From the IMG/VR virus record IMGVR_UViG_3300042556_001330, positions 1-64,000 of that record: a stretch of DNA of 64,000 bases. One strand, 5' to 3'. How positions within the stretch are numbered: position 1 is the first letter of the stretch; the number at the start of each line of letters is the position of its first letter. A program made the position numbers and the translations under genes. Under the pieces are notes generated by a model. The model was not told the origin of the DNA. It was given only the letters and a program-made list of their open reading frames with translations, and made no database searches. The DNA comes from a virus. Of this stretch, positions 1-23,916 are shown in pieces.

Positions 1-579
1 ACAAATGGTATGGATGTATTAACTATACAACATTTAATAAATGAATATAAATTAGATGTAGATATTGAAAAAATTAAATCATCGTATAGTATGTTTCCAC
101 ATAATCTACAAAGTGAAAGCGGAAATACTTATGGTGATATCAATGCATGGACTGATGTGCATTTTAAAGCTCATTTAGATTCTTATTTTGAAATATTATT
201 TGAGACATTAGTAGACGGAGAACACAAATCACTTACGGAAAAAATATTCAAACCAATTGCAAATTTTCAACCATTTATATTTGTAACATTTGCAGGTGGT
301 TTAAAATTATTAAGAGAATTAGGATTTAAAACATTTGATGGTTTTATAGATGAAACTTATGATACAATTGAATCAAAAGAAGATAGAATGTTGGCAATTC
401 ACAATGAAATTAAAAAATTATGTGCAATGTCAAATGAAGAATTGCATGATTGGTATTGGAAAATGGAAGACATATTAGTTCATAATCAGAAATTATTGTT
501 AGAGTATCATAAAGTAAAACCATATGGTGTTAACTTTATAAATGAACTTTATAATATACAAAACAATATCATTTTGTAA
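1..579 (+). CDS. Left-truncated hypothetical protein, glycosyltransferase-like C-terminal region
   Basis: The frame is open from the first base of the window, so the ATG at 10 is probably internal and the gene is cut by the left edge. The visible 189+ residues contain a TEKIFKPIANFQPFIF segment followed by a GFKTFDGFIDETYD segment. The first resembles the TEKlfda...P pattern near the sugar-nucleotide site of GT10-like transferases. The second is, from memory, a block that recurs in phage proteins of unknown function. The stop codon shares one base with the next ATG, which places it in the sugar-metabolism operon. A glycosyltransferase role is an inference from this partial motif and the neighbours; the catalytic N-terminal part is not in the window. 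Confidence 0.55.
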   Translation, partial: TNGMDVLTIQHLINEYKLDVDIEKIKSSYSMFPHNLQSESGNTYGDINAWTDVHFKAHLDSYFEILFETLVDGEHKSLTEKIFKPIANFQPFIFVTFAGGLKLLRELGFKTFDGFIDETYDTIESKEDRMLAIHNEIKKLCAMSNEELHDWYWKMEDILVHNQKLLLEYHKVKPYGVNFINELYNIQNNIIL

Positions 580-1361
580 TGATGGATGTAAATAAAATAT
601 TATCCGACAATGTTTTTGTATTTGAACAATATAAAAATAAAATATTATCAACACTTGCAAGTGATACAATAGATGACGGCACAATCCAATATAAAATGAA
701 TGAACATGGATATCGTTCCGATTCATTTAAAAATAAAACAAAATTTAATGTATTAACATTGGGTTGTTCTTGGACAATGGGTATTGGTGTCGATAATAAT
801 AAAATCTGGCCAAATCTAATTGGTAATAAATTTGGTAAAGTTTTTAACTATGGTATGTATGGAGTATCTACATCATTTATTGCAAAAACACTTTATAAAA
901 TAGTATCATCTGAATTTATACCGGATATGGTTTTAATAATGTGGCCTGGATTTAGTAGGAGAGATTATATAAGAGAAAATGGTTCATTTAAAAAAGTCGG
1001 AGGATTTAGAATTGCAAACGATAGTGATTTGGTTTGGAAAAATGAAAATGAAGATTTATTATTTATAGAATTGAGAAATGATTATCAAGATTTGATGACA
1101 TTTTGGGAAGCTTATACATTTGTCGAAACTATTGCAAAATTATATAACATTAAAATATTTCATACAATTGCAGGATATTATTATGATGTTTTCAAAGAAT
1201 TGGAAACCGAATTAAAATATACTATAAATTATGATAGATTTTTTGACCCAATTAATTGTTATAAAAATGATTTAAAGGGTAGGGATAATCACCATCCCGG
1301 TGAAATCTGGCATGAGAATTTTTCAAAACAATTTTATACTTATATTAAAAATAAGTTATGA
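579..1361 (+). CDS. SGNH/GDSL-like hydrolase
   Basis: The 260-residue protein has the hallmarks of an SGNH-fold esterase or acyl-transferring hydrolase. A block I-like LGCSWTMGIGV with the candidate nucleophile Ser lies at residues 62-72, and a C-terminal DNHHPGEIWHENF carries the candidate catalytic Asp/His. A NYGMYGVSTSF segment is consistent with block II. No signal peptide is seen, so the protein should act in the cytoplasm. Family members remove or add acyl groups on sugars and other substrates; the substrate here is unknown. The start overlaps the preceding stop by one base (TAATG) and the end overlaps the epimerase start (ATGA), so the genes are translationally coupled. A second SGNH-like protein is encoded two genes on. 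Confidence 0.75.
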   Translation: MMDVNKILSDNVFVFEQYKNKILSTLASDTIDDGTIQYKMNEHGYRSDSFKNKTKFNVLTLGCSWTMGIGVDNNKIWPNLIGNKFGKVFNYGMYGVSTSFIAKTLYKIVSSEFIPDMVLIMWPGFSRRDYIRENGSFKKVGGFRIANDSDLVWKNENEDLLFIELRNDYQDLMTFWEAYTFVETIAKLYNIKIFHTIAGYYYDVFKELETELKYTINYDRFFDPINCYKNDLKGRDNHHPGEIWHENFSKQFYTYIKNKL

Positions 1362-2329
1362 AAATTCTTATCACAGGTGGTGCAGGGTATTTGGGCTCAG
1401 TAATTACTGGAGTTATGTTAAATGCTGGATATAGTGTTACTGTTTTAGATAAATTACTATTTAATCAAACCTCTTTATTACAATATACATCTAATTCAAA
1501 ATTTAAATTCATATATGGTGATGTTCGTAATTTAACCGAATTGGAAAGATTATGTAAAGAACATGATGTAATAATCCCATTGGCAGCTATTGTGGGATTT
1601 CCTGCATGTGCAGCAGACCCCAAATTAGCAAAAGAAATTAATTTTGACCAAATTGTAAATATAGTTAGATTTACAAATGGTTTAGATAAAAAGATTCTAT
1701 ATCCAAACACAAATAGTGGTTATGGATTAGGAACGGGTGAATTGGAATGTAATGAAGAATCACCACTTACACCCATTTCAGTTTATGGACAAACTAAATG
1801 TGATGCTGAGAATTTTTTAAGAACTTCAACCGATGCAATTACTTTTAGATTAGCAACCGTATTTGGGGTTTCACCAAGAATGAGAACGGACTTGTTGGTA
1901 AATGATTTTGTTTACAAGGCAATCACAGACAAATATATTGTAGTATTTGAAAAATCCTTTAAAAGAAATTTTATTCATGTAGAAGATGTTGCATCTGCAT
2001 TTTTATTTATGTTAAAAAATTATAAAACATACAATAGTGAAGTTTTTAATGTAGGATTGACTTCTGCAAATTTAAATAAACAAGAACTATTGGAAAAAAT
2101 ACAAAAATATGTAAAAGATTTTGCAGTAGTATATGATGATTATTATCAAGACCCAGATAAAAGAAATTACATAGTTTCAAATAAAAAAATAGAAGATACT
2201 GGATGGAAACCTGAATGGGATTTGGATATGGGAATTAAACAATTAATTCAAGGATATCAAATGATTGTTCCAAAGATGGGTGCAGAATTCAGAAATGGGT
2301 TTCCGTTAGGTTATGCAAATTTGGGATAA
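1358..2329 (+). CDS. NAD-dependent sugar epimerase/dehydratase (extended SDR)
   Basis: This 323-residue protein is an extended short-chain dehydrogenase. The N-terminus MKILITGGAGYLGS carries the Rossmann GxxGxxG dinucleotide motif (residues 7-13). The YGQTK motif supplies the catalytic Tyr143 and Lys147, and the NTNSGYG stretch at 117-123 provides the upstream Ser/Thr. Length and motif spacing match NDP-sugar 4-epimerases and dehydratases such as GalE or RmlB relatives, but the sequence does not fix the substrate. It sits between two SGNH hydrolases and upstream of an RmlC-like epimerase, which suggests synthesis of a modified nucleotide sugar. The ATG overlaps the previous TGA. Confidence 0.9.
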   Translation: MKILITGGAGYLGSVITGVMLNAGYSVTVLDKLLFNQTSLLQYTSNSKFKFIYGDVRNLTELERLCKEHDVIIPLAAIVGFPACAADPKLAKEINFDQIVNIVRFTNGLDKKILYPNTNSGYGLGTGELECNEESPLTPISVYGQTKCDAENFLRTSTDAITFRLATVFGVSPRMRTDLLVNDFVYKAITDKYIVVFEKSFKRNFIHVEDVASAFLFMLKNYKTYNSEVFNVGLTSANLNKQELLEKIQKYVKDFAVVYDDYYQDPDKRNYIVSNKKIEDTGWKPEWDLDMGIKQLIQGYQMIVPKMGAEFRNGFPLGYANLG

Positions 2330-2330
2330 T

Positions 2331-3161
2331 ATGGATTTTAGTAAATATAAATTTTTTTATGTAAATGGTTGTTCACATAGTGAAGGTGGAGGCCTAGAAC
2401 CAAGTGAAATTAGGGGAATTGGTGTAATTCCAATATATAAAGAATTATATGGTATAGATTGGAAATCTACAAGTGAAGTTAATTTTGGAAAACGATTGGA
2501 AGAAATTATAGGAATAAAATGTATAAATGAAGCCAATTCAGGAGGAAGTACATCAAGAGTTGTAAGAATGACTTATGATTTTATTTACAATAATTGGGAA
2601 AATAAAGATAAATTTTTTCTAATTTTAGAAAAACCAGATTCATCTCGTTCAGATGTATTTAGTGCAAAACATAATGAATATTTTATTGTAAATTCCAAAG
2701 TTAATAATTCGATACACACATTTGCCGGTGCATCTAGAGATTATTTTAATTTATCATATAGAAAAGAGGATAGTTCATCAAAACATATATTTGAAAATTG
2801 GTATGAAAACCATTATAGTTTTGAAAATAATATTAGTCAAGATGAAAAGGCATTTATTGGATTATATTCTTTTTGTAAATTAAATAATATTAAAATTTTT
2901 ATAATGAATGGAAATTCATTATATTTTTGGGAAGTATTTGATAAATCCGATATTATAAAATTTTCAAATAAAGAAAATGAATCCGATGACATATACAGTT
3001 GGTGTCTTCGAAACAAAATGACAATACATGATGAAACGTTGGGTAAAATGACCGAATATGTAGATACTCATCCTGGATACTTTGGTCATATAGAATATGC
3101 TAAAAAACTGGCAAAATTTATAGGATGGAATCAAAAAAATAATAAAAATAAATTAATATGA
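2331..3161 (+). CDS. Second SGNH-like hydrolase
   Basis: I place the start at the ATG two bases after the epimerase stop. An in-frame ATG at 2313 would add six residues and overlap the epimerase. The product begins MDFSKYKFFYVNGCSHSEG, in which GCSHSEG is a block I-like nucleophile region, and ends with a DTHPGYFGHIEYAKKL segment resembling the block V Asp-x-x-His. A NEANSGGSTSR segment fits block II. It is clearly diverged from the hydrolase at 579-1361, so it is not a recent duplicate. Related SGNH-like proteins occur in T4-like environmental phages, usually without known function. The C-terminus overlaps the RmlC-like gene by four bases (ATGA). Confidence 0.7.
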   Translation: MDFSKYKFFYVNGCSHSEGGGLEPSEIRGIGVIPIYKELYGIDWKSTSEVNFGKRLEEIIGIKCINEANSGGSTSRVVRMTYDFIYNNWENKDKFFLILEKPDSSRSDVFSAKHNEYFIVNSKVNNSIHTFAGASRDYFNLSYRKEDSSSKHIFENWYENHYSFENNISQDEKAFIGLYSFCKLNNIKIFIMNGNSLYFWEVFDKSDIIKFSNKENESDDIYSWCLRNKMTIHDETLGKMTEYVDTHPGYFGHIEYAKKLAKFIGWNQKNNKNKLI

Positions 3162-3706
3162 GTTATAAAGATAAAAAGTGGAATGATATAGAAGTTTCAT
3201 TTTTAAAACCATTTGATAAAGATGTACCGGTATTTTCACCATCGGTATATAGAGAATATAGGGGAGAAATTTGGACAACATATCATCCGGAAGAACATCC
3301 TGTTCATAATTTTATGCACGGAGATTTGAAGGTACATGGTAGATTTTCAAAATCATACAAAGGTGTATTAAGAGGATTACATTGGGATAATAAGACTTGG
3401 AAATTAGTTCAAGCATTGGTGGGTGATATATTTTTAGTAGTTTTGGATGTTAGAAAAGATTCACCAACATATGGTGATTGGAATTCATATTTACTTACTG
3501 AAAAAACCAGAGACCAAGTATTAGTTCCACCGGGATTTGCAAACGGACATTATGCACTAACAGATTGTGTATTTCATTATAATTTATTTTATGAAGGTGA
3601 TTTTGTTGAAGAAAATGCACAAGGTGTTGTAAAGTGGAATGACCCTGAATTTCAAATCGAATGGCCAACCGATTCACCAATATTACAAAAAAGAGATAGA
3701 TGTTAA
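3158..3706 (+). CDS. RmlC-like dTDP-4-dehydrorhamnose 3,5-epimerase family protein
   Basis: The 182-residue protein matches the RmlC cupin family in length and motifs. LRGLHWD (71-77) carries the catalytic His75, the VPPGFANGHYAL segment (about 123-134) is the family's conserved cupin strand, and a Tyr follows at about 141 in HYNLFY. RmlC enzymes epimerise 4-keto-6-deoxy nucleotide sugars at C3 and/or C5. With the SDR gene upstream this suggests a deoxysugar branch, but RmlA, RmlB and RmlD equivalents are not all visible here, so the pathway may borrow host intermediates or continue left of the window. It overlaps both neighbours by a few bases. Confidence 0.88.
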   Translation: MSYKDKKWNDIEVSFLKPFDKDVPVFSPSVYREYRGEIWTTYHPEEHPVHNFMHGDLKVHGRFSKSYKGVLRGLHWDNKTWKLVQALVGDIFLVVLDVRKDSPTYGDWNSYLLTEKTRDQVLVPPGFANGHYALTDCVFHYNLFYEGDFVEENAQGVVKWNDPEFQIEWPTDSPILQKRDRC

Positions 3707-4329
3707 AAAATTTAGAACAATATCCAATAGTAAGAGATATCGATTGGACTGTAGAAAAACTTATTAAGTTTGAACAAGAAATTGTTGATATATGGGAAAG
3801 TGGAAAAATCAGAGGCCCGGTACATTTGTCAAATGGAAACGAAGAACAACTTATAGAGATATTCAAAAGAATTAAAACATCCGATTGGGTATTCAGTACA
3901 TGGCGTTCTCATTACCATTGGGTTTTAAAAGGATTATCCGCAGATTATGCAACCGAATTAATTAAAGAAGGTAAATCAATCACAATGTGTGAACACAACG
4001 AAAAATTCTACGCTTCTGCAATCGTAGGGGGTACTCTATCAATTGCTTTAGGAGTTGCAATGGGAATCAAACAGAGTGGTAGTGATGAAAAAGTATTTGT
4101 ATTCATTGGTGACATGTCATTCGAAAGTGGTATATTTTATGAAGTACATAAATATGCTAGAAATTTTGACTTACCAATTGTATTTGTTGTAGAAGATAAT
4201 GGGGTATCGACATATACTCCAACCGAATCAACTTGGAATAAAAAAAGAGACATCCCATCGGATGTTATTCATTACACTTATAAATCAAAATATCCACACT
4301 ACGGAAGTGGTAAATGGATAGCCTTTTAA
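3700..4329 (+). CDS. TPP-dependent dehydrogenase E1 alpha-like / transketolase N-terminal-like subunit
   Basis: The 209-residue protein looks like the thiamine-diphosphate-binding half of a 2-oxoacid dehydrogenase E1. FIGDMSFESG (about 135-144) followed by VEDNGVST around residue 167 is the GD...N diphosphate/Mg motif. STWRSHYHWVLKG (67-79) corresponds to the RdHxxxlakG region of E1 alpha. It is much shorter than a typical E1 alpha (over 320 residues). The partner pyrimidine-binding subunit is the next gene, so the pair should form one enzyme. There is no E2 or E3 gene nearby, so a non-redox C-C ligation or decarboxylation, for example in branched-sugar synthesis, is more plausible than a full dehydrogenase complex. 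That last point is an inference. Confidence 0.75.
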   Translation: MLKNLEQYPIVRDIDWTVEKLIKFEQEIVDIWESGKIRGPVHLSNGNEEQLIEIFKRIKTSDWVFSTWRSHYHWVLKGLSADYATELIKEGKSITMCEHNEKFYASAIVGGTLSIALGVAMGIKQSGSDEKVFVFIGDMSFESGIFYEVHKYARNFDLPIVFVVEDNGVSTYTPTESTWNKKRDIPSDVIHYTYKSKYPHYGSGKWIAF

Positions 4330-4331
4330 TT

Positions 4332-4874
4332 ATGAATAAACCAGAATATACACCATATAAAGATGCATTGAGTATTGCAATGAAAAACATATCCGATTTG
4401 GATAATTCTATTTTCATTGGCCAACAAATAGTTTATGCAGGAAATCCAATGAGTACAACATTGGGTGAAGTACCAAAAGAAAAAATGATTGAATTGCCTG
4501 TTATGGAAGAAACACAAATGGGAATGAGTTTGGGACTATCAATGACTGATAAATTGGTAGTAACATTTTATCCGCGTTGGGATTTTATAATATGTGCAAC
4601 AAACCAATTAATAAACCATATTGATAAATACGAATCCATGACAGGATTTAAACCACATATTATAATTAGATTGGGAAAGGGTTCGGATAAACCATTAGAC
4701 CCAGGACATCAACATAAGGGTAATTATTTTGAAGAATTTAAATCTATGTGTAAAAATATAGAATTATTGGATTTAAAAACACCAACCGATATAGAATTAT
4801 CATACAAATATGCTACACAAAACAAAGGAGTATATATATTAGTAGAATATCCAGAATTATATTATAAAAATTAA
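4332..4874 (+). CDS. TPP-dependent E1 beta-like / transketolase pyrimidine-domain subunit
   Basis: I choose the ATG two bases after the stop of the alpha-like gene; an in-frame ATG at 4314 would overlap it. The 180-residue product has the pyrimidine-domain signature: an early YKDALSIAM helix, an ELPVMEETQMGMSLGLS stretch with the Glu expected to activate the TPP aminopyrimidine, and TFYPRWDFIICATNQLIN, equivalent to the E1 beta 'F.dF...a.dqi.n' motif. GKGSDKPLDPGHQHKG fits the usual 'G...GpqHsq' block. The C-terminal transketolase domain (about 130 residues) of normal E1 beta proteins is missing, giving a minimal two-subunit enzyme. It ends the sugar operon. Confidence 0.75.
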   Translation: MNKPEYTPYKDALSIAMKNISDLDNSIFIGQQIVYAGNPMSTTLGEVPKEKMIELPVMEETQMGMSLGLSMTDKLVVTFYPRWDFIICATNQLINHIDKYESMTGFKPHIIIRLGKGSDKPLDPGHQHKGNYFEEFKSMCKNIELLDLKTPTDIELSYKYATQNKGVYILVEYPELYYKN

Positions 4875-5025: not shown

Positions 5026-8000
5026 ATGAATTTGAACGAAGTAAATAAACCAATCATAGAAGGTGAGGTTGTGGTGTATGCTGGTAGATTCCAACCATTC
5101 CACAGAGGTCATTACGATGCATACCAAAGATTGGTAAGTGAATTTGGTTCTGCAAATGTTTACATTGCAACATCAAATGATACATCATCTGATAAATCTC
5201 CATTTTCTTTTAACGAGAAAAAGGAAATTGCAACTAAAATGTTTGGTGTTCCATCTACTAAATTTGTAAGAGTAAATAACCCATATAGACCTGTTGAAAT
5301 ATTAAAAAAATATGATGGTCAAACTATCGCATATATTGCAGCGGTAGGTGAAAAAGACGCAACGAGATTACAGGGTAAATATTTTAAACCATATAGAGGT
5401 AAAGCTGGGTATGGTTATGATGAAATAGGTTATACATATCCAATACCTGCCGAAAAGGACCCGATTAGTGGAACCGATGTTCGTAATGGATTGGGTAGTG
5501 GTGATAAAGAAAAAGCTAAAAAGTTTTTTCTTAAAGCATACCCAAAATTTGATAAAGATATTTTCAAAATGATAACAACTAAGTTAAGTGAAGGATTTCC
5601 AGGAGGAATAGGTGTTGGATTAAATTTACCTGGAGGATATATAAATGGTGCACCAACGGGTTCTGTGACTGAATTGGTTAGTGGTTATGAATTAAACCCA
5701 TATGACCCAATTGCAGAATTGTTAAACCAAGTAGTTACCGAAGAATTATTTCAAGAATTTACCAAACAATATTTTACAGAAGAATCTGATGCAAAAAAGA
5801 TGGGGTTAACCCATTTAGGTGGGGGATATTATGGTAAAGATAAAGGACAACCCGCAACACATAAATCAGATGGTGATAATATAAGAGCTTTAACACCCGC
5901 GGAAGCAGCAGCCGAAAAACAAAAACATATGGCAAAAGGCCCTTCGGATGCACCCGCAAACGAACCAAAACCATCTCAACCTGGACAACCTGTTAATAAG
6001 GATACAACTGTACAGGGTAAAACTGATACTGAAAAAGAAAAAGGTTCAGAAAATAAACCTGGAGAAGAAAAGCAAGAGGCACCACCAGAACAAAAATTAA
6101 GTGGAGATGAATTAAAATCATCGGCAGAAATGTCTCCGGAAGATAAAAAAGTTGCACAAACAAAAGAGGCATTAGATAAAGCCAGAAAAGAAATGTCTGC
6201 AGAAGATAATGGTATTATAGATTCACATAATAATCCTCAATCACCGGAAAGAAAGGGAATGGTTGACAATATGGTTGATGGTGTTAAAAAATTCGGTAAA
6301 GGTTTGAAAAATTGGTTTATTCACAAAAAAGAAATGGTTGGTGGAACAATGGATGGTATTGTATCAATAGCAACTACCGGTAAGATTGGTAGTGTGAAAG
6401 ATAAAGAAGGAAAACGTAGACATTGGAGTGAATTCACAGAAGTTGGTCGTGGTGGTAAGCACCAAATGGAATATGTTGAAACGGATGAATTGGATTCACA
6501 TGGTAAACCAACGGGTAAAAAAGTAGGGGAACATAGACCGAAAGTATCACAATACGCATTGGATGAAGAAAAACAATTGTTTGAAGCTTCTTGGAAAGAA
6601 AGCAAAAAACAAAAGAAAGATATGACTCATTTTGCAAAGGATATGGGACTTATATTAGGTTCTATGGCATTGGGTGGTGCAGGTGTTGGAGCAATCAAAG
6701 CAGCTGTTGCTGGTGCAGGTGCATCCGGTGTAGGAACGGCCGCAGCAGCCGGTGGGGCCGGTGCATTTACACATGGAGCGGCCGGTTTTGGTGTCCACTT
6801 AGCCAAAGATATTGCAAAACATGCATCTCTTGAAGCAATGGGATTGGGTGCATCACAAGCTGCCGGAGTTGGTGCAGGTTTATCTACTGCAACTTTAGGT
6901 TTATTAGAAATTCTTAAAGAAGAAAATGAACCAAATAATAATAGTAAATTTACTTCTAAATTTATTGGAAAAGTAATCGAAAAGATGAAAACCTATAAAT
7001 TATCAGATGAACAACTTCTTAAATCAATAGAAAGTTATAAAAAAAATAAACCAAAAAATGACGCGGCAGATTTATTAAAAGAAGATATATCTGAATCAAA
7101 ACAAAATTCTATAAATCATTTTGTAGAATACGCAACTAAAAAATTAAAATTAAAAGAACAACCAAAAATAACTTTGGTATCAGGTAGAGAATATTCGGAA
7201 GCAAAAACCAGTTTAGGTGGATATAATCCAATATCTAAAGAAATATTCGTTGCAATTGAAGGTAGATTAACGGCAGATATTTTAAGAACTCTTGCACACG
7301 AAATGGTTCATAGAAAACAAGATGAATTGGGATTGGTAAAAGATGAAGTTAAAGATGGTGCAACAGGTTCTCCAATAGAAAACCAAGCACACGCTGTAGC
7401 TGGAATCTTAATGAGAAATTATGGTAAAATAAATAAACAAATATATAACGAAAATGTTAATGTAGATGTTGATAAAGGTGATGAAGTTTTAATGGGTAAA
7501 TTTAAGAACAAAAAAGTTACCGTTAAAGATATTGGAAAAGATTCTCATGGGATGCCAACAATCAATGGTAAACAGGCAACTACATTTAGAACAATAGATG
7601 AAATGGGTAATAAAGATGTTCATTTTATAAACATTATAAAGTTGTATAGAAATGCAACATTCAGAAAAAGAATAAATGCATATCTGTTTGGTAGAGCAAA
7701 TATGCCATCAAATCCAAATATGGTTGCAAGAGCACTTCGTAATATGGGTTATGATGAAATAACTCAAATGGAAAAAGAGTTAAACATTCAACCTGACTTA
7801 AATGAAGTTAGTAACGTTCAAATATCTAATACAGCAGATATTCCAGATGGTTCATTTATTCAAAAAGGTAAAAAAAGAAAACTAAACACAGATAAGAGTG
7901 AAGATTGGTATAAAAATGGTGGATATACACAAACCGAATTTCCAAAAGCAGACGCAATATTTGGTGATGAGGATGCAGAAGAAAGAATTGTTACATATAG

Positions 8001-9258
8001 TATAGAAAATCTTCCAGATGTGAAGTATGTAAAAACCGATTTCATTAAAGAAGGTTTATTAATGGAAGGTGGTGCATATGGACATATGTCACATCCATTT
8101 GATGATATGGATTTAACTTTTGGTGATTTAAAAAATATAATTACAAAAGCACTTAATGGTGATTTGGGTATAGTTAGAGAAAAAACAGACGGACAAGCTT
8201 TGGCAATTAGTTGGAAAAATGGTAGATTAATTGCAGCAAGAAACAAAGGACATTTACAAAACGCAGGTGCAAATGCATTGGGTATAGAAGGTGTTGCATC
8301 TAAATTTGCCGGAAGAGGTGGATTAACCGATGCATACAATTACGCAATGAAAGATTTATCCGCAGCTATATCATCCTTATCAGAAAAACAAAGAGAAAAG
8401 ATTTTTGGTGAAGGTAAAAACTTTATGAATATTGAAGTAATTTGGCCAACATCGGTAAATGTAATTCCTTACGGACAAGCTTTATTGGTTTTCCATAATT
8501 GTATTCAGTATAACGAAAGTGGTGTTGCAGTAGGACAAGTAGATGGTGCAGAAAATATATTAGCCGGAATGATTAAACAAGTAAATGCAGACGTTCAATC
8601 AAAGTATACAATACAAGGCCCACCGATTACATCAATTCCAAAATCAGAAGATTTAAGTTCTAAACAAAGTAAATATCTTTCTAAGTTAAATAAATTACAA
8701 AATGAATTTGGATTGAAAGATTCTGATAATGTTGCAGACTATCATCAAAGCTGGTGGGATTGGTGGATTACATCAAATAGTCCAGTAAAAGTTGACAAAC
8801 TTACAAAAGAGGCATTAATTAGGAGATGGGCATTTGGAGATAAATCATTTAGATTAAATACAATCTCAAACCCAGAGTTACAAAAGTGGACAATTACACA
8901 AGATAAAGTAAATGTTATAAAACAACAAAAAGATAATATTAAACCATTCGAAGAATTATTTTTAGGAGTAGGTGCAGATGTTTTAGAATTTGTCAGTTCG
9001 GTATTAACAGTTCATCCTGACAAAGCGATTAGGTCAATGAAAGAAAAACTAAAGTCTGTTGCATCACAAGTTAGAAGTGGTGGAGACCCATCAAAAGTTC
9101 AAAAATTAAAACAAGAATTAAGTAGATTAAATGCTTTGGGTGGTATTGATAAAATAGTTGCAACCGAAGGATTGGTGTTCTTTTATAATGGAAAAACGTA
9201 TAAACTTACGGGTTCTTTTGCACCCCTAAACCAAATATTGGGTATTTTTTACGAATAA
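5026..9258 (+). CDS. Giant multidomain protein: nucleotidyltransferase + metallopeptidase + ligase-like nucleotidyltransferase
   Basis: The 1410-residue protein has at least three enzyme-like regions. (1) Residues about 14-185: a cytidylyltransferase/NMNAT-like domain with AGRFQPFHRGH (HxGH at 26-29) and ISGTDVR at about 146-152, equivalent to the family's ISSTxxR. (2) A Pro/Glu/Lys-rich linker (about 270-410), then an Ala/Gly-rich hydrophobic stretch around 545-630 that could insert in a membrane. (3) Residues about 695-800: a zinc-metallopeptidase signature LAHEMVHRKQ with HEMVH at 758-762. (4) Residues about 1020-1410: EKTDGQALAISWKNGRL, with K1053-T-D-G fitting motif I of ATP-dependent ligases and capping enzymes, and AARNKG downstream. 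The N-terminus contains PIIEGE, a possible gp21-type cleavage site, so packaging in the head is conceivable. Domain identities come from motifs only. Confidence 0.8.
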   Translation: MNLNEVNKPIIEGEVVVYAGRFQPFHRGHYDAYQRLVSEFGSANVYIATSNDTSSDKSPFSFNEKKEIATKMFGVPSTKFVRVNNPYRPVEILKKYDGQTIAYIAAVGEKDATRLQGKYFKPYRGKAGYGYDEIGYTYPIPAEKDPISGTDVRNGLGSGDKEKAKKFFLKAYPKFDKDIFKMITTKLSEGFPGGIGVGLNLPGGYINGAPTGSVTELVSGYELNPYDPIAELLNQVVTEELFQEFTKQYFTEESDAKKMGLTHLGGGYYGKDKGQPATHKSDGDNIRALTPAEAAAEKQKHMAKGPSDAPANEPKPSQPGQPVNKDTTVQGKTDTEKEKGSENKPGEEKQEAPPEQKLSGDELKSSAEMSPEDKKVAQTKEALDKARKEMSAEDNGIIDSHNNPQSPERKGMVDNMVDGVKKFGKGLKNWFIHKKEMVGGTMDGIVSIATTGKIGSVKDKEGKRRHWSEFTEVGRGGKHQMEYVETDELDSHGKPTGKKVGEHRPKVSQYALDEEKQLFEASWKESKKQKKDMTHFAKDMGLILGSMALGGAGVGAIKAAVAGAGASGVGTAAAAGGAGAFTHGAAGFGVHLAKDIAKHASLEAMGLGASQAAGVGAGLSTATLGLLEILKEENEPNNNSKFTSKFIGKVIEKMKTYKLSDEQLLKSIESYKKNKPKNDAADLLKEDISESKQNSINHFVEYATKKLKLKEQPKITLVSGREYSEAKTSLGGYNPISKEIFVAIEGRLTADILRTLAHEMVHRKQDELGLVKDEVKDGATGSPIENQAHAVAGILMRNYGKINKQIYNENVNVDVDKGDEVLMGKFKNKKVTVKDIGKDSHGMPTINGKQATTFRTIDEMGNKDVHFINIIKLYRNATFRKRINAYLFGRANMPSNPNMVARALRNMGYDEITQMEKELNIQPDLNEVSNVQISNTADIPDGSFIQKGKKRKLNTDKSEDWYKNGGYTQTEFPKADAIFGDEDAEERIVTYSIENLPDVKYVKTDFIKEGLLMEGGAYGHMSHPFDDMDLTFGDLKNIITKALNGDLGIVREKTDGQALAISWKNGRLIAARNKGHLQNAGANALGIEGVASKFAGRGGLTDAYNYAMKDLSAAISSLSEKQREKIFGEGKNFMNIEVIWPTSVNVIPYGQALLVFHNCIQYNESGVAVGQVDGAENILAGMIKQVNADVQSKYTIQGPPITSIPKSEDLSSKQSKYLSKLNKLQNEFGLKDSDNVADYHQSWWDWWITSNSPVKVDKLTKEALIRRWAFGDKSFRLNTISNPELQKWTITQDKVNVIKQQKDNIKPFEELFLGVGADVLEFVSSVLTVHPDKAIRSMKEKLKSVASQVRSGGDPSKVQKLKQELSRLNALGGIDKIVATEGLVFFYNGKTYKLTGSFAPLNQILGIFYE

Positions 9259-9304: not shown

Positions 9305-9973
9305 ATGGCAAAAAGAAAAAGTTTTGATGAGAAATCAAAAGGGATGCACAAATCTCGTAAACTCATCATTGACACGGTTTTTGGTAGAGTAGACAACACA
9401 CAAAGAGTACATGGGTATGAGGGTGAGGTTGAAGAAAAGAGAGAGGTTGGTGAAAGATGGACTGACAAAGAAGGAAAAGAGTGGGAGCAGAAAGACGGAT
9501 TTAAAGTTGCAGTCACTCAAATGGATGATGTAAGACAATTTTTACAAAAATTGAGTACATGTTCAAATGAAGATTGTAAAACGGAATCATATAGTAATGC
9601 AGACAAAAAACTAATTCGCAAAACAGGAATGTGTATTGTTTGTCTTGCTAAATTTGAACAAGGTTTAAAGGAAGATGGGACATATCCTTTCTATGAAGAT
9701 TATAAGATAACAAGAAACAAACTTGCTTATGTTAGAGAATTAAAGGATAGATATGAAGAAGCTTTAGGTGGTATTAGAAAACAAATGGAAATTATCACCG
9801 AAGATGGCAGAACTGAAACTTGGACATGGGATGTAGATATTGAAAAAGTAAAAACAGATTTGAAAAAAGACATTGATGGAGCATATGAAGCCATTGAATT
9901 GTTAATAGAAAGAAAAAGATTATTAGAAGAAAAATTGGTTGAGTTAAATCATCCAGAATTAATTAAAAAATAA
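9305..9973 (+). CDS. Conserved hypothetical protein with CxxC-type cysteine motifs
   Basis: The 222-residue protein has an N-terminal basic and charged region and a central pair of cysteine motifs, CSNEDC (about 86-91) and CIVC (about 110-113), spaced as for a zinc ribbon. The C-terminal half is predicted helical and probably coiled coil (ERKRLLEEKLVEL). It lies two kilobases upstream of the large terminase, where a T4-like genome could carry a small terminase or packaging factor, but I see no sequence support for calling it gp16. Function is unknown; a nucleic-acid-binding structural or packaging accessory is possible. Confidence 0.7.
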   Translation: MAKRKSFDEKSKGMHKSRKLIIDTVFGRVDNTQRVHGYEGEVEEKREVGERWTDKEGKEWEQKDGFKVAVTQMDDVRQFLQKLSTCSNEDCKTESYSNADKKLIRKTGMCIVCLAKFEQGLKEDGTYPFYEDYKITRNKLAYVRELKDRYEEALGGIRKQMEIITEDGRTETWTWDVDIEKVKTDLKKDIDGAYEAIELLIERKRLLEEKLVELNHPELIKK

Positions 9974-10649: not shown

Positions 10650-11287
10650 TGAAAAAAATATTTGATATAAGACATATAGTAATTGCAATACTTTTAGTAT
10701 TAGTAGTTGTAGAATTTATTAATCCAAAAGGTATTATGCCAAATAGAACTATTGTCATGCATGATACGATTGGAATAGAAGTACCAGTTCATGATACTAT
10801 CCCAGAAGAAGTTGAAGTTGAAGTTGAAGTGCCAGTTATGGTTGAAAAACCAGTTCCATATGCGGTACACGATACTATTCAAACAATTGTAGATACTAAC
10901 CTTATTGTAAATCAATATTTGAATAGTAAGAACATATTTACAAACACATATAAGTTTGATAAAAAACAAGGTTCAATTACAATAACCGATACTATAAGTA
11001 ATAATAAAATAATCGGTAGAAAATATACAACTAAAATAACACCAATAATAGATACTATTAGAATACCAGAACCTTTCAAAAGAAAAGTTTTTGGTGGAGT
11101 TGAAGCATCATTTAATAAACCTGATGTTGTAAGTTCATTAGGAGTTGGATTTTTAATTAATAGTAAATCTAATAAAATATATCAATTAGGTTTGGGAGTT
11201 ACTAATCAAACAACCGATGGAACGAATGGTTCATTTACTCCATATATCAAAGGTGGTGTTTATTGGAAAATTAAATTAAAAAAATAA
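10649..11287 (+). CDS. Membrane-anchored envelope protein with C-terminal beta-strand region
   Basis: The 212-residue protein has an N-terminal transmembrane helix (RHIVIAILLVLVVVEF, about residues 8-23). A Val/Glu/Pro-rich stretch follows (PEEVEVEVEVPVMVEKPVP), with repeated HDTI motifs at about residues 32, 44 and 68. The C-terminal 80 residues alternate in beta-barrel style (GGVEASF, SLGVGFLI, QLGLGV, YIKGGVYWKI). The combination suggests a span from the inner membrane towards the outer membrane, as a unimolecular envelope protein might do. It forms an overlapping trio with the two upstream membrane genes and ends one base into the terminase ATG. Lysis or envelope disruption is an inference. 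Confidence 0.55.
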   Translation: MKKIFDIRHIVIAILLVLVVVEFINPKGIMPNRTIVMHDTIGIEVPVHDTIPEEVEVEVEVPVMVEKPVPYAVHDTIQTIVDTNLIVNQYLNSKNIFTNTYKFDKKQGSITITDTISNNKIIGRKYTTKITPIIDTIRIPEPFKRKVFGGVEASFNKPDVVSSLGVGFLINSKSNKIYQLGLGVTNQTTDGTNGSFTPYIKGGVYWKIKLKK

Positions 11288-12894
11288 TGGGAGTTCAAGG
11301 GCAACCTAAGAAAACCTTAAAAGAGATAATAGCTGAAGAATATCGTAAATGTGCATTAGACCCCATTTACTTTATGAAAAAGTATTGTATCATTCAGCAT
11401 CCGGTGAGAGGAAAAATACCCTTTCACCTTTATCCATTCCAGGAAGATTGTTTAACAGACTTTAAAGATAATCGTTTTAACATTATTCTTAAATCTCGTC
11501 AGTTAGGTTTATCAACTCTTTCTGCAGGATTTATTTTGTGGAAGATGATATTCAATCAGGACTTTAATGCATTGGTAATCGCAACGAAAGTAACTGTAGC
11601 TAAGAATCTGGTAGAGAAGGTAAGAGTTATGCACGATTTACTTCCTATTTGGTTGAGAGATGGTGGAACTGCAGCTGCAGAAGATAACAAACTTTCACTT
11701 AAATTAAAAAATGGTTCACAAGTAAAAGCAATCGCAAGTTCTCCAGACGCAGGTCGTTCTGAAGCCCTATCACTATTAGTTGTGGATGAGGCTGCATTCA
11801 TTAGAGATATTGATGAGATTTGGTTATCAGCACAATCAACCTTATCAACGGGTGGTTCTGCAATTGTATTATCTACTCCAAATGGTATCGGTAATTGGTT
11901 CCATAAAATGTGGGTAGATGGTGAGAGTGGACAAAATGGATTTAATAATATCAATTTACATTGGACTGTACACCCTGAAAGAAATCAAGCATGGAGAGAT
12001 GAACAAACTCGTATCTTAGGAGTTAAAGGTGCAGCACAAGAATGTGATTGTGACTTTGTTGGTTCCGGTGATACGGTATTTGAACCTGCATTATTGACAT
12101 GGTATAAAGATACATATGTGATGGAACCTGTACAAAAAAGAGGATTTGATAATAATCTTTGGGTATGGGAACATCCAAATTACAATAGAGCATATATGGT
12201 TTGTGCGGACGTTGCACGTGGCGACGGAGCTGACTATTCTACTGCACAAGTTATAGACATCGAAGATTCATCACAAGTTGCGGAATATAGAGGTAAAATT
12301 GATACAAAAGATTTTGGAAATTTTTTAACATCATTAGCAACCGAATATAATAATGCACTTTTGGTAGTGGAAAATTCAAATGTGGGTTGGGCCTGTATTC
12401 AACAAATTATTAATAGAGGATATCAAAACTTATTTTATATGAGTAATGATTTACAATATATTGATACCGAAAGACAAATGTCTAACAAATATTATAGAGA
12501 TGAAAGAAATATGGTTGCAGGATTTTCAACAACCAGTAAAACACGACCACTTATCATATCAGCTTTGGACACATATATGAATGATAAGGATATTTTAATT
12601 CGTTCAACGAGATTGATAGATGAAATGTTTACATTCATTTGGCATAATGGTAGAGCAGAAGCAATGAAAGGATATAATGATGACCTTATTATGGCGTTAG
12701 GTATTGGACTTTGGGTTCGTAATACTGCATTGAGATTGAAACAAGAGGGTATAGATTTGACAAAGAGTATGTTAAACTCGGCACAAATAAACAAATATGA
12801 AGGAATAATTACAACCAACCATTTAACTAAAAACCCATATGAAATGGATTTAGGTAGAGGTCAAACAGAAAACTTAACATGGTTACTTAAATAA
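11287..12894 (+). CDS. Terminase large subunit (gp17-like)
   Basis: The 535-residue protein is the DNA-packaging motor ATPase and headful nuclease. The N-terminal ATPase has a Walker A-type KSRQLGLST at 69-77 and Walker B LLVVDEAAF with D167/E168. The C-terminal RNase H-like nuclease begins with VCADVARGDGADYS, where D308 is the likely first metal ligand. T4 gp17 is about 610 residues, so this is a compact version. It would dock on the portal, encoded two genes downstream, and pump DNA into the prohead. The ATG overlaps the stop of the preceding membrane protein gene. No intein or frameshift is visible. Confidence 0.96.
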   Translation: MGVQGQPKKTLKEIIAEEYRKCALDPIYFMKKYCIIQHPVRGKIPFHLYPFQEDCLTDFKDNRFNIILKSRQLGLSTLSAGFILWKMIFNQDFNALVIATKVTVAKNLVEKVRVMHDLLPIWLRDGGTAAAEDNKLSLKLKNGSQVKAIASSPDAGRSEALSLLVVDEAAFIRDIDEIWLSAQSTLSTGGSAIVLSTPNGIGNWFHKMWVDGESGQNGFNNINLHWTVHPERNQAWRDEQTRILGVKGAAQECDCDFVGSGDTVFEPALLTWYKDTYVMEPVQKRGFDNNLWVWEHPNYNRAYMVCADVARGDGADYSTAQVIDIEDSSQVAEYRGKIDTKDFGNFLTSLATEYNNALLVVENSNVGWACIQQIINRGYQNLFYMSNDLQYIDTERQMSNKYYRDERNMVAGFSTTSKTRPLIISALDTYMNDKDILIRSTRLIDEMFTFIWHNGRAEAMKGYNDDLIMALGIGLWVRNTALRLKQEGIDLTKSMLNSAQINKYEGIITTNHLTKNPYEMDLGRGQTENLTWLLK

Positions 12895-12927: not shown

Positions 12928-13875
12928 ATGAACGAAGATTTAAATAAATGGTTTAAAGAAAAATGGGTGAACATCGGAAAAAAAGTCGATGGAAAACACC
13001 CGCCATGTGGAACTTCGGGAGAAAAGAGTGGGTATGCAAAATGTGTTCCTGCTGCAAAAGCTGCTGGAATGAGTAAAAAAGAAAAAGAAAGTGCAACTCG
13101 TAGAAAAAGAGCTGCACAAAATGATGCAGGAAGAGGTGGAAAGGATAGTAGTGGACAAGGTAAAAAACCAATATATGTTTCAACAAAACCAAAAAATGAA
13201 ACTATGAACATAGAAGAAAAAATAAATTTATTTTTAGAAAAGAATTGCCCAACTGACCCTGGTAAATGGTCAGCATCTAAATCAGCAGCAAAATCTAAAT
13301 TTGATGTTTATCCATCGGCATATGCAAATGGATGGGCTGCAAAAAACTACAAAGAAAAAGGTGGTGGTTGGAAAACTTGTAATGAAGGTGAAACCAATGC
13401 ACTTTGTGAAGATTGTTGGGATGGATATAAAGCAGTTGGTGGCAAAATGAAAAATGGTAAGATGGTGCCAAATTGTGTTCCTGTAAATGAAGATATAGAT
13501 AGTGATGATGATGTAAATTATGGTTTAGTTGAACCAGAAGAATATGATGTTGAAGATGAGGATATGGAAGACTTCATTTCATTTATGAGAAATTACGCAA
13601 AAGACTTAAATGAAGCAGGTTGTCCATGTGTATTTGAAGCAGAATATCAAGGTAGAGAAGTTAAATTGGGAAAACCAATGGCCGGTGATGTTAAGAAATT
13701 TAAAGTATATGTAAAAAATCCAGCTGGTAATGTTGTTAAAGTAAACTTCGGTCAAAAGGGAGTAAAAATTAAAAAGAACAATCCTGATAGAAGAAGAAGT
13801 TTTAGAGCGAGACACAATTGTGATAATCCAGGACCAAGACATAAGGCAAGATATTGGAGTTGTAGAAAGTGGTAA
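12928..13875 (+). CDS. Conserved phage head-region protein with two Cys-rich basic domains
   Basis: The 315-residue protein has an N-terminal domain, KWVNIGKKVDGKHPPCG...KCVPAAKAAGMSKKEK, of a type seen in T4-like marine phages and annotated DUF5872 as I recall. A second cysteine-rich part follows (CEDCWDGYKAVGGKMKNGKM), then an acidic segment (about 190-220). The C-terminal domain is basic, with KIKKNNPDRRRSFRARHNC and a terminal ARYWSCRKW. An internal MNIEEKINLFLEKN at about 92-105 resembles the head-targeting leaders of neighbouring small proteins. Location between terminase and portal suggests a packaged or prohead-associated DNA-binding protein. Function is not established. Confidence 0.75.
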   Translation: MNEDLNKWFKEKWVNIGKKVDGKHPPCGTSGEKSGYAKCVPAAKAAGMSKKEKESATRRKRAAQNDAGRGGKDSSGQGKKPIYVSTKPKNETMNIEEKINLFLEKNCPTDPGKWSASKSAAKSKFDVYPSAYANGWAAKNYKEKGGGWKTCNEGETNALCEDCWDGYKAVGGKMKNGKMVPNCVPVNEDIDSDDDVNYGLVEPEEYDVEDEDMEDFISFMRNYAKDLNEAGCPCVFEAEYQGREVKLGKPMAGDVKKFKVYVKNPAGNVVKVNFGQKGVKIKKNNPDRRRSFRARHNCDNPGPRHKARYWSCRKW

Positions 13876-13930: not shown

Positions 13931-15673
13931 ATGGCAGATAAATCAATATTTAGTAGGTTACAAAAATTATTTTCAACTAACACCATAGTAAGAAAAACTG
14001 AAAATGGTGTAAAAGTTATCGATACGGATGAGTGGCAGAATATGACCACCAACCTTGTTGATAGATTTATGAAGTTGAAGGTAACAAACTATGGAACGGG
14101 CCAATTAGAATCATCAATGGCATATCAACAAGTTAGAATTGATTTGTTTAGAGATTATGATTCAATGGATATGGACCCGATACTATCATCAGCATTGGAT
14201 GTATATGCAGATGAATGTACTGCTAGAAATGAACAAGGAAATGTATTAAAAATACATCACGACGATGATAATGTTAAACAAATATTAGAAAATCTATTCT
14301 ATGATATTCTTAATGTTGAATTTAACTTATGGCCATGGACAAGAAACTTAGTAAAATATGGTGATTTCTTTTTACAATTAGAAATGGCAGAAAAAATTGG
14401 TATTGTAAATGTGATGCCGCTATCTACATATGAAGTTAGTAGAGTTGAAGGATTTGACCAACAAAATCCACAAAGAGTTAAATTTGTATACTCACCATAC
14501 CAAAATCCATTAGGAGCATACGGCCAAACTGCAAAGAAAGAATTTGAAAACTATGAAATGGCCCACTTCCGATTAAATTCAGATTCAAACTTTTTACCTT
14601 ACGGAAAATCTATGATTGAAGGTGCAAGAAGAGTTTGGAAACAATTGATGTTAATGGAAGATGCTATGTTGATTCATAGAGTAATGAGAGCTCCTGAAAA
14701 AAGAATATTTAAAATTGACGTAGGTAATATTCCACCAAATGAAGTGGATAACTACATGCAGAAAATTATCAACTCATCTAAAAAAGTTCCATTTGTTGAC
14801 GAAAGAACTGGTGAGTATAACTTAAAGTATAATGTACAAAATTTAATTGAAGATTACTATATGCCAGTACGTGGTAATGATAATGGTACTTCAATTGATA
14901 CTTTAAAAGGATTGGAATACAATATGATTGATGATATTAACTACCTAAAAGGTAAGTTGATGGCAGCATTGAAAATTCCAAAAGCATTTTTAGGTTATGA
15001 AGAAGAAACGAATGGTAAAGCAACTCTTGCATCAATGGATGTTAGATTTGCAAAAACAATTGAAAGAGTTCAAAGAGTTTTAATTTCAGAATTAACCAAA
15101 ATTGCAATTGTTCACTTATACGCACAAGGTATAGATGATGACAATTTGACTAACTTTACATTAGAATTAACTATTCCATCTAAAATCTATGAACAAGAAC
15201 AAGTTGAATTGTATACTTCAAAAGTAGCATTGATTCAACAAATGCAACAAACCAAAATGTTCTCAAAAGAGTGGATGTATGAGACTGTAATGAAAATGGC
15301 CAAGGATGAACAAGACGAATTAACACTTTCAGTATTAGAAGATACTAAACAGGCATTTAGATTAACTTCAATTGAAACACAAGGTGTAGACCCTGCAAAA
15401 GAAACTGGAACCGAAGGCCCTACCAATGTAGAAGAAGAATTAAATAGATTAAAAACTGAATTAGAGGAAGAAGGCAATGTAGGTAGACCAAAAGACCCAG
15501 TTAGATATGGTAAAGATGACCATCCAGAAGGGAGAGACCCGTTAGGTATTAAAACTCTAAAAGCAAAAGAAGGTTCGGTAAAATATAAACCAAGAAATAA
15601 TTATCAAGAAATATTTAAGGATATGAATGGTAATAAAAAAACTATTTTAACCGAAGATTTAACAAAAGAGTAA
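13931..15673 (+). CDS. Portal vertex protein (gp20-like)
   Basis: The 580-residue protein is the dodecameric portal through which DNA enters and leaves the head. Recognisable T4 gp20-type segments are RDYDSMDMDPILSSALDVYA near residues 76-95, GRAR-like SMIEGARRVWKQLMLMEDAM (about 224-243), and LKIPKAFLGYEEETNGKATL near residue 350. It is slightly longer than T4 gp20 (524 residues) because of a charged C-terminal tail rich in Glu/Lys. It lies downstream of the terminase and upstream of the protease, as expected for a T4-like head module. No membrane segments are seen. The start follows an A-rich leader without a Shine-Dalgarno sequence. Confidence 0.95.
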   Translation: MADKSIFSRLQKLFSTNTIVRKTENGVKVIDTDEWQNMTTNLVDRFMKLKVTNYGTGQLESSMAYQQVRIDLFRDYDSMDMDPILSSALDVYADECTARNEQGNVLKIHHDDDNVKQILENLFYDILNVEFNLWPWTRNLVKYGDFFLQLEMAEKIGIVNVMPLSTYEVSRVEGFDQQNPQRVKFVYSPYQNPLGAYGQTAKKEFENYEMAHFRLNSDSNFLPYGKSMIEGARRVWKQLMLMEDAMLIHRVMRAPEKRIFKIDVGNIPPNEVDNYMQKIINSSKKVPFVDERTGEYNLKYNVQNLIEDYYMPVRGNDNGTSIDTLKGLEYNMIDDINYLKGKLMAALKIPKAFLGYEEETNGKATLASMDVRFAKTIERVQRVLISELTKIAIVHLYAQGIDDDNLTNFTLELTIPSKIYEQEQVELYTSKVALIQQMQQTKMFSKEWMYETVMKMAKDEQDELTLSVLEDTKQAFRLTSIETQGVDPAKETGTEGPTNVEEELNRLKTELEEEGNVGRPKDPVRYGKDDHPEGRDPLGIKTLKAKEGSVKYKPRNNYQEIFKDMNGNKKTILTEDLTKE

Positions 15674-18130: not shown

Positions 18131-18514
18131 ATGACCACTATTGGTTCTATACTCATTGGTAAGATTATCTTTTATTATATTGTAGATTTGGCACAAAAAG
18201 GAATGAAATATTTCCAAGGAAAACCAAACTATAAAAAAGAGGTTAAAAGTATTTTAGATTCGATTGCAGATAATAAAAATGTAATTGAAGATATATCTAA
18301 AATGATTGACCCGAAAAAAGGAATTGACAATAGTACCGCTGAGGATATTGTTAATATGGGATATATTAAGACACAGATAATTAAAATGGTGGATAGTACA
18401 AATGGTGAGTTGGATGAAACTGAATTGAAAAATCAATTAAAGACCATACTTATCAAATCTTGGACACCAATGAGTAGTGTGGCAATTGAAAAAGTTAAAA
18501 AGGATTTAAAATAA
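18131..18514 (+). CDS. Small membrane protein of the head operon
   Basis: From the ATG at 18131 the product is 127 residues; the same frame is open back to the slippery run at 18098, and a TTG at 18122 is an alternative. The N-terminus MTTIGSILIGKIIFYYIVDL is a likely transmembrane helix. The remainder is a charged helical domain (KKEVKSILDSIADNKNVIEDISKMID). The upstream codons (VDENLILGV) extend the hydrophobic start naturally, which supports either an upstream non-ATG start or a frameshift fusion with the EF-hand protein. Its stop overlaps the ATG of the prohead protease. Function is unknown. Confidence 0.65.
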   Translation: MTTIGSILIGKIIFYYIVDLAQKGMKYFQGKPNYKKEVKSILDSIADNKNVIEDISKMIDPKKGIDNSTAEDIVNMGYIKTQIIKMVDSTNGELDETELKNQLKTILIKSWTPMSSVAIEKVKKDLK

Positions 18515-19104
18515 TGAGTAAAGGACTATTAATAGAAACACACCTATTTGAGGCAAAAATGGTGAAAGAAGAAAACGGAACTTATTTAGTTAAGGGTATT
18601 CTTCAAAGAGCAGGTGCACCAAATCAAAATCATAGAAGGTATCCTAAAGAAATCTTAGAAAGGGAGTGTAAAAAATACGAACAACTTATTAAAGAAAGAA
18701 GAGCATTGGGTGAATTAGACCACCCAGATTCTCCGGTTATCAACTTAAAAAATGTATCACATAACATTAGAGAAATTTGGTGGGATGGTGATGATGTTTG
18801 TGGTGTAGTAGAAATTCTTTCAACTCCTTCCGGAAATATTCTTAGAGAATTATTAAAGAATAATATTCGTTTAGGTATTAGTAGTAGAGGATTGGGTTCG
18901 GTAAAAGAACTTAGAGATGGTACTGTAATGGTTCAGGAAGACTTTGAATTGGTTGGATGGGACTTTGTATCAAATCCATCAACACATGGTGCATTTATGG
19001 CTCCTATGAACGAAAGTAAACAATGGGCAAAAGTAGCAGAGGAATGTGGTAAGTGGTGTAAGTCACAAGATTTAATGAGAGAAATTATAATAGAACTAAA
19101 TTAA
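18514..19104 (+). CDS. Prohead protease (gp21-like)
   Basis: The 196-residue protein is the T4 gp21-type serine protease that matures the prohead by cleaving scaffold, capsid and internal proteins. The catalytic His is in GELDHPDSP (H70) and the Ser in GISSRGLGS (121-129). The conserved LQRAGAPNQNHRRYP segment (30-44) and WDFVSNPSTHGA near residue 150 are also typical. Length is close to T4 gp21 (212). It lies upstream of the scaffold and capsid genes, separated by several small candidate internal proteins that may be its substrates. T4 gp21 cuts after L/I-x-E; matching sites occur in several neighbours. Confidence 0.95.
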   Translation: MSKGLLIETHLFEAKMVKEENGTYLVKGILQRAGAPNQNHRRYPKEILERECKKYEQLIKERRALGELDHPDSPVINLKNVSHNIREIWWDGDDVCGVVEILSTPSGNILRELLKNNIRLGISSRGLGSVKELRDGTVMVQEDFELVGWDFVSNPSTHGAFMAPMNESKQWAKVAEECGKWCKSQDLMREIIIELN

Positions 19105-23893: not shown

Positions 23894-23916
23894 ATTAACA
23901 AATAAATTCATTGAAA

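Follow-up and report, generated by a model that had tools for sequence, protein, structure and literature searches.

The window analyzed here is a stretch of 64,000 nucleotides of viral DNA (positions 1 to 64,000 of IMG/VR record IMGVR_UViG_3300042556_001330, a viral fragment of 64,396 bases). An intact open reading frame (ORF) at positions 5026 to 9258, on the plus strand like its domains and motifs and the downstream head genes given below, encodes a 1410-residue multi-enzyme protein that we interpret, with moderate confidence, as a polyprotein that is packaged in the phage head, cut by the head protease, and injected to restore nucleotides or RNA. The analysis directly establishes which domains the sequence encodes, how well they are conserved, how the modules are arranged, where the gene lies, and how [LI]xE motifs are distributed; from these we infer packaging, cleavage, injection, catalysis, and a role in RNA repair. 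Under the proposed mechanism, the polyprotein would be made along with the late head genes, its short N-terminal leader would draw it into the prohead, and the gp21-type head protease of the phage would cut it at [LI]xE in the leader and between domains. The products would then be ejected with the DNA into the host. Their core would be a HIGH-type nucleotidyltransferase and an RNA-ligase-1-like enzyme acting via lysine-AMP at K1053, a pair that would most likely restore nucleotides or broken RNA ends, for example in tRNAs cut by host defense nucleases, before phage gene expression. More tentatively, we propose that this system constitutes a new class of polyprotein, in which the head-assembly protease cuts the chain within the prohead at motifs confined to domain junctions, such that a single gene would supply the host, at infection, with RNA-repair enzymes and cofactor enzymes as separate proteins in a fixed ratio.

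The chain carries the signatures of three unrelated enzymes in one frame, HRGH (residues 26 to 29), HEMVH (758 to 762), and KTDG (1053 to 1056), exactly where the initial annotation had placed them. In composition shuffles, a shuffled protein was expected to contain 0.04 copies each of HxGH and HExxH and 0.89 copies of KxDG; the chain contains three copies of the last (K95, K280, and K1053). KxDG was therefore rejected as sole evidence, and its evidential weight must come from conservation. We confirmed at least 470 relatives in IMG/VR by whole protein and at least 591 by C-terminal domain, in two scans. Conservation was counted over 68 distinct full-length relatives, each with both the nucleotidyltransferase domain and the KxDG domain at its C-terminus. 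EKxDG was kept in 68/68 of these, HxGH in 64/68, and HE[ML]xH in all 57 of the relatives that have the peptidase domain. The claim of three enzyme-like domains in one chain was borne out, and variation of the catalytic residues among homologs, which the initial annotation had named as grounds for abandoning it, was not what we found.

The N-terminal HIGH-superfamily nucleotidyltransferase domain (residues 15 to 186; positions 5068 to 5583) matched Pfam family PF01467 (CTP_transf_like; E = 1.8e-7) at 31.9 bits, above the gathering score of 21, as well as phrog_395 (2e-11). Its GRFQPFHRGH motif (5083 to 5112) includes the HxGH signature, which reads GxHH in two of the 68 relatives (L081 and L230 have GIHH or GPHH in its place), and the ISGTDVR motif (residues 147 to 153; 5464 to 5484) is kept in 67/68. 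Nicotinamide mononucleotide (NMN) adenylyltransferases were the nearest families, NadM/NadR and NatV sharing the GRFQPFHxGH and SGTxxR motifs. However, the window domain scored far below the equivalog cutoffs (28.3 bits versus 449 for the NCBIfam model) and has other fusion partners.

This domain and the C-terminal KxDG domain co-occurred in nearly every complete protein found. The only complete proteins with one domain alone were a split pair in the huge phage LR756500, L049 (where the open frame begins late, at the edge of a broken contig), and L229 (a partial match). In LR756500, a 421-residue protein consists of the C-terminal domain alone, and the nucleotidyltransferase is encoded in the next gene. 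The metallopeptidase was present in 57/68 relatives. Single relatives carried further domains: LR756508 has a ParB-like domain (weak, below cutoff), and L230, from a contig that is filed as part of a Flavobacteriales genome, has the head domain of a CCA/poly(A) polymerase (1.5e-29) with its RNA-binding domain. In our interpretation, the zinc peptidase and the other modules are lineage-specific additions to a core pair.

By eye, the protein encoded by the next gene in LR756500 (L157:5262-7220) has a ligase-like N-terminus ahead of its nucleotidyltransferase. In this N-terminus, N replaces the lysine of motif I (ENLDG) and Q replaces the glutamate of motif III; given these two substitutions, it may be an inactive copy. 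A homolog of this N-terminal part, likewise without KxDG, occurs in the huge phage LR756502 (L231), and four more huge-phage records match. In the L230 protein (L230:516-6236; 1907 residues), the CCA/poly(A)-polymerase head domain is apparently intact; the protein also has a further domain at residues 737 to 1026 and, by eye, a ParB-like stretch near residues 240 to 290. The viral protein A0A218ML49 (971 residues, annotated as SET domain-containing) matches the ligase-like model by fold, which suggests a further fusion partner.

Between the two core domains lie a variable linker, the predicted peptidase, and a small module. According to BLAST coverage of relatives and alignment gaps, the linker (residues 190 to 683; positions 5593 to 7074) is mostly missing from six complete short relatives (L029, L031, L037, L041, L052, and L054; L055 is apparently a copy of L054). 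Within it, an Ala/Gly-rich hydrophobic stretch ending in LLE (residues ∼540 to 628; 6643 to 6909) could be a membrane-inserting segment. Combined alanine and glycine content reached at least 42% in a 60-residue window in 42 of the 57 relatives with the peptidase and in 0 of the 11 without it. The peptidase domain (residues 690 to 806; 7093 to 7443) was tentatively assigned to the ImmA/IrrE or minigluzincin type of zinc metallopeptidase from a structural model, whose core had mostly predicted local distance difference test (pLDDT) values of 70 to 94. In Foldseek searches, its best solved structures were IrrE/PprI-type regulators and the minigluzincin abylysin (probabilities of 0.95 to 0.99 for these top matches); overall, the matches had E values of 6e-3 to 3e-2, probabilities of 0.89 to 0.99, and low template modeling scores. 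The predicted fold shares with these families the HExxH helix (HEMVH; 7297 to 7311) and a downstream glutamate, with E785 the candidate third zinc ligand in an ENxA motif (residues 785 to 788; 7378 to 7389) that is present in all 57 relatives with this domain and whose E and N (E102 and N103 in the numbering of the domain comparison) are invariant. The domain differs from them in being embedded in a phage polyprotein and in lacking a sequence-family match: no Pfam peptidase family scored above cutoff, and no credible PDB sequence match was found. It is followed by a repeated module of ∼50 residues (residues 807 to 858; 7444 to 7599), with 0 to 3 hidden Markov model matches per relative. Possible substrates of the peptidase are host proteins or its own chain.

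The evidence for processing by the head protease comes from the distribution of [LI]xE. The window protein begins with MNLNE (5026 to 5040), a leader ending in [LI]xE that we predict to be a capsid-targeting or prohead-protease site. An [LI]xE lies inside the first 16 residues in 65/68 relatives versus 8.2 expected, and the motif ending at residue 5 is a conserved feature (38/39 aligned). Examples of leaders in divergent relatives are MKGLTQYLIETILGE followed by AA and MGNLIKEWVRGILVE followed by E. T4 Alt, a packaged and injected protein that gp21 trims, likewise has a short N-terminal leader ending in LxE (MELITE), and several relatives of the window protein start with MNLITE. At the junctions, LSE where the nucleotidyltransferase domain ends (5584 to 5592) corresponds to an [LI]xE in 37 of 40 non-redundant relatives (window protein included), and LME directly before the ligase-like domain (residues 1012 to 1014; 8059 to 8067) to one in 40/40. 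Across the 68 proteins, the parts outside the three enzyme domains had 17.0 [LI]xE sites per 1000 residues and the domains themselves 3.2, versus 10.0 in junctions and 7.4 in domains expected from composition; these pooled counts are not independent, since the sequences are related. The reversed motif gave 14.7 outside versus 11.1 inside, and other controls were about equal. The idea had come from close relatives of the window, so the divergent L230 is the fairer test: all 12 of its [LI]xE sites lie outside domains and none inside, versus 9 and 12 for the reversed motif (P = 0.0017), with the limits of its two extra domains drawn by eye after inspection of the sequence. A first, stricter column test reached P = 0.019 only, among ten residue types tried.

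The LxE cleavage rule rests on the T4 gp23 site together with general background. By sequence check, residue 65 of T4 gp23 is the E closing LTE, and this protein loses a 65-residue propeptide (PMC9958956). The window gp23 has a candidate cleavage between LLDE and ATR after residue 61, a place comparable to the T4 site. The T4 scaffold proteins, which are digested, are enriched in [LI]xE. T4 Alt, gp23, and gp24, which survive gp21, are not depleted of the motif in their folded bodies; depletion is thus no general mark of packaged proteins, and we rejected it as a universal one. Alt further differs from the window family in being an ADP-ribosyltransferase with no multisite junction pattern. The initial annotation had also proposed Alt-like packaging and injection, likening a PIIEGE site near the N-terminus to gp21 cleavage sites, and had suggested that the protein might be cleaved into separate enzymes. 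Packaging, injection, and cleavage into separate enzymes are indirectly supported. PIIEGE itself did not hold up, occurring only in the window and three close relatives among the 40 non-redundant proteins, with [LI]xE sites located elsewhere.

Two other accounts of the site pattern were weighed. In the first, the protein would be a classic polyvalent protein, packaged and injected but processed by its own zinc peptidase, which lies inside the chain with its motifs intact; embedded zincin-like peptidases have been proposed as processors of polyvalent proteins (PMC5512222). Yet the 11 relatives without a peptidase keep the junction pattern (24.4 [LI]xE per 1000 in junctions versus 4.3 in domains), and the sites fit the T4 head-protease cleavage point but no known gluzincin site; we regard self-processing as unlikely. 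In the second, the protein would be an ordinary late cytoplasmic enzyme that is never packaged, and the [LI]xE pattern would reflect the composition of E-rich linkers, for which 10.0 sites per 1000 are expected; packaging, for its part, is reached by inference. Against this account, the junctions exceed and the domains fall short of the expected densities, the reversed motif shows little contrast, and the leader is kept in nearly all relatives. Moreover, Rnl1/2 relatives, taken as cytoplasmic, had 15.3 sites per 1000 versus 11.6 predicted. An unpackaged enzyme seems improbable to us.

The C-terminal domain (residues 1015 to 1410; positions 8068 to 9255) points to T4 RNA ligase 1 (Rnl1, gp63) by motifs and by weak profile and fold matches. 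Its invariant residues, kept in 67 to 68 of the 68 relatives, fall in the motif order of covalent nucleotidyltransferases: EKxDG, AARNK, N[IL]E[VI], EGxVF, and K[LF]TG. In the window, these include KTDG (motif I; 8182 to 8193) with the candidate nucleophile K1053, NIEV (motif III, E1137; 8428 to 8439; 67/68), EGLVF (motif IV; 9166 to 9180; 68/68), and YKLTG (motif V; 9199 to 9213; 68/68). Motifs I and III were registered by profile alignment with T4 Rnl1, which paired K1053 with K99 and E1137 with the glutamate of motif III (NFE); motifs IV and V were assigned by eye. Shared with T4 Rnl1 are KxDG, a basic motif Ia, NxE in motif III followed by PT...V..Y, EG in motif IV, and the lysine of motif V. 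The alignment gave P = 0.044, with 8 of 150 column shuffles scoring as high; when Rnl1 proteins from the same phages were added and the helical insert was omitted, it gave P = 0.0069, with one of 120 shuffles higher. In a Foldseek search of the PDB with a poor model of the domain, T4 Rnl1 was the top hit (E = 0.27) among 350,542 solved chains, and in a viral fold library, RNA ligases took ranks 11 to 16, after the protein's own family (best E = 7e-3). Rnl2 was rejected as the closest ligase, the full domain aligning no better than shuffled columns (35/150). For the peptidase and ligase-like domains, PDB sequence searches yielded weak hits (RNase III and ribosomal protein S6) that we judged to be chance.

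Several results weigh against our interpretation. The Rnl1 profile P values lie only between 0.007 and 0.04, and the model of the ligase-like domain is poor (mean pLDDT, 66). The domain has no Pfam family match (RNA_lig_T4_1, PF09511, gave none at E thresholds of 10 or 5) and no credible PDB sequence match. An ordinary Rnl1 is also encoded in 3 of 15 phages with the ligase-like domain, which in those phages is therefore not the sole RNA ligase. The CCA-type fusion occurs in one relative only, and the absence of [LI]xE depletion from T4 Alt, gp23, and gp24 counts on the same side, as does the finding of NadV, the NAD-salvage partner, in 2 of 15 relatives' genomes or fragments, many of them fragmentary.

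A third account concerns the C-terminal domain, which might be a protein- or DNA-modifying relative of the ligases, for example an assembly factor similar to T4 gp63 in its tail-fiber role; T4 Rnl1 is itself annotated as a tail-fiber attachment catalyst. The lack of a formal family match fits this possibility, as do a helical insert of ∼190 residues between motifs IIIa and IV and the absence of a helical C-terminal domain beyond motif V, the chain stopping 17 residues after the motif V lysine. These features and the fusion to other enzymes set the window family apart from T4 Rnl1. However, the domain retains all of motifs I, Ia, III, IV, and V of nucleotidyl transfer, and the CCA/poly(A)-polymerase fusion in L230 also argues for RNA, leaving a non-RNA ligase with only a small share of the probability. 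The least probable account is a packaged NAD-restoring factor that would make NAD+ (nicotinamide adenine dinucleotide) from NMN after host NADase defenses, with the ligase-like domain using or sensing adenylated cofactors: NMN adenylyltransferases are indeed the closest families to the N-terminal domain, but every such model falls far under its cutoff, the scarcity of NadV led us to reject a NAD-salvage pair, and the CCA-type fusion points to RNA. The initial annotation had instead proposed an adenylylating takeover factor, which found no support here. Given the likeness to Rnl1 and the CCA-type fusion, a role in RNA repair is the more plausible guess. Both Rnl1 and CCA-adding enzymes are known to serve phages in RNA repair (PMC7824862).

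The interpretation of the window protein as an injected polyprotein places it near the polyvalent proteins of phages and conjugative elements described by Iyer et al. in 2017, in which unrelated enzymes are joined and which are thought to be injected (PMC5512222). In both, unrelated enzyme domains are combined in a large chain with metallopeptidase and ParB-like modules, the gene sits next to virion genes, and injection is predicted; the window family has at least two unrelated enzyme domains per chain and a phage late/virion gene neighborhood. In contrast to the polyvalent proteins described, it has head-protease-like sites at domain junctions. That study centers on MPTase, ART, ParB, and similar hubs; in a text search, its main text brought up RNA ligase only to say that it does not associate with polyvalent 2H domains, and CCA was not mentioned (PMC5512222). 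As far as the literature searched extends, the domain pair is new, as is the evidence that the head protease, besides the internal peptidase, may release the parts; the RNA-ligase-like family, with hundreds of members, is probably new. If the interpretation is correct, RNA repair would be injected ahead of any phage gene expression, answering fast tRNA-cutting defenses, and the capsid protease would double as the enzyme that processes a polyprotein. Other injected enzymes of T4-like phages could then be sought computationally by the [LI]xE junction rule, and nucleic acid enzymologists would have use for a new RNA-ligase-like family that carries a large insert.

In this T4-like phage, the ORF lies just upstream of the packaging and head genes, beyond which come the tail sheath and other tail genes. 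The packaging and head genes include those for the terminase large subunit (11287 to 12894; PF03237, 2.8e-8), the portal protein gp20 (13931 to 15673; PF07230, 8e-72), the gp21-type head maturation protease that is the predicted cutter of the polyprotein (18514 to 19104; phrog_207, 2.9e-54), and the major capsid protein gp23 (23911 to 25524; phrog_138, 2e-72, and comparison with T4 gp23). Directly downstream of the ORF is a conserved Cys-containing gene, zinc-ribbon-like by eye (9305 to 9973), with counterparts in the same place in L081, L082, and L230. The pre-terminase position and this next gene are both kept in L230 and in Microcystis phage Mel-JY01, for which no published data were found in the literature searched. 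In the annotated phage collection, the C-terminal domain was found only in Mel-JY01 and two uncultured huge phages, and the central 24 kb of the window had no close relative. No tRNA genes were found in the window.

Other genes of the window were noted in passing. A candidate scaffold protein encoded before gp23 (22649 to 23893) has 13 [LI]xE sites (31.4 per 1000), a richness that resembles the digested T4 gp22; it had no PHROG match. Another modular head-region protein (12928 to 13875) has short conserved blocks parted by LxE-like motifs, and its C-terminal block is found again within a separate protein, L230:84-509. Upstream of the polyprotein gene, a cassette at positions 579 to 4874 contains an apparent sugar epimerase gene (1358 to 2329) and a sugar 3,5-epimerase-like gene (3158 to 3706), both assigned by eye, and a thiamine-diphosphate enzyme spread over two overlapping genes (3700 to 4329 and 4314 to 4874; E1_dh, 2.6e-17).

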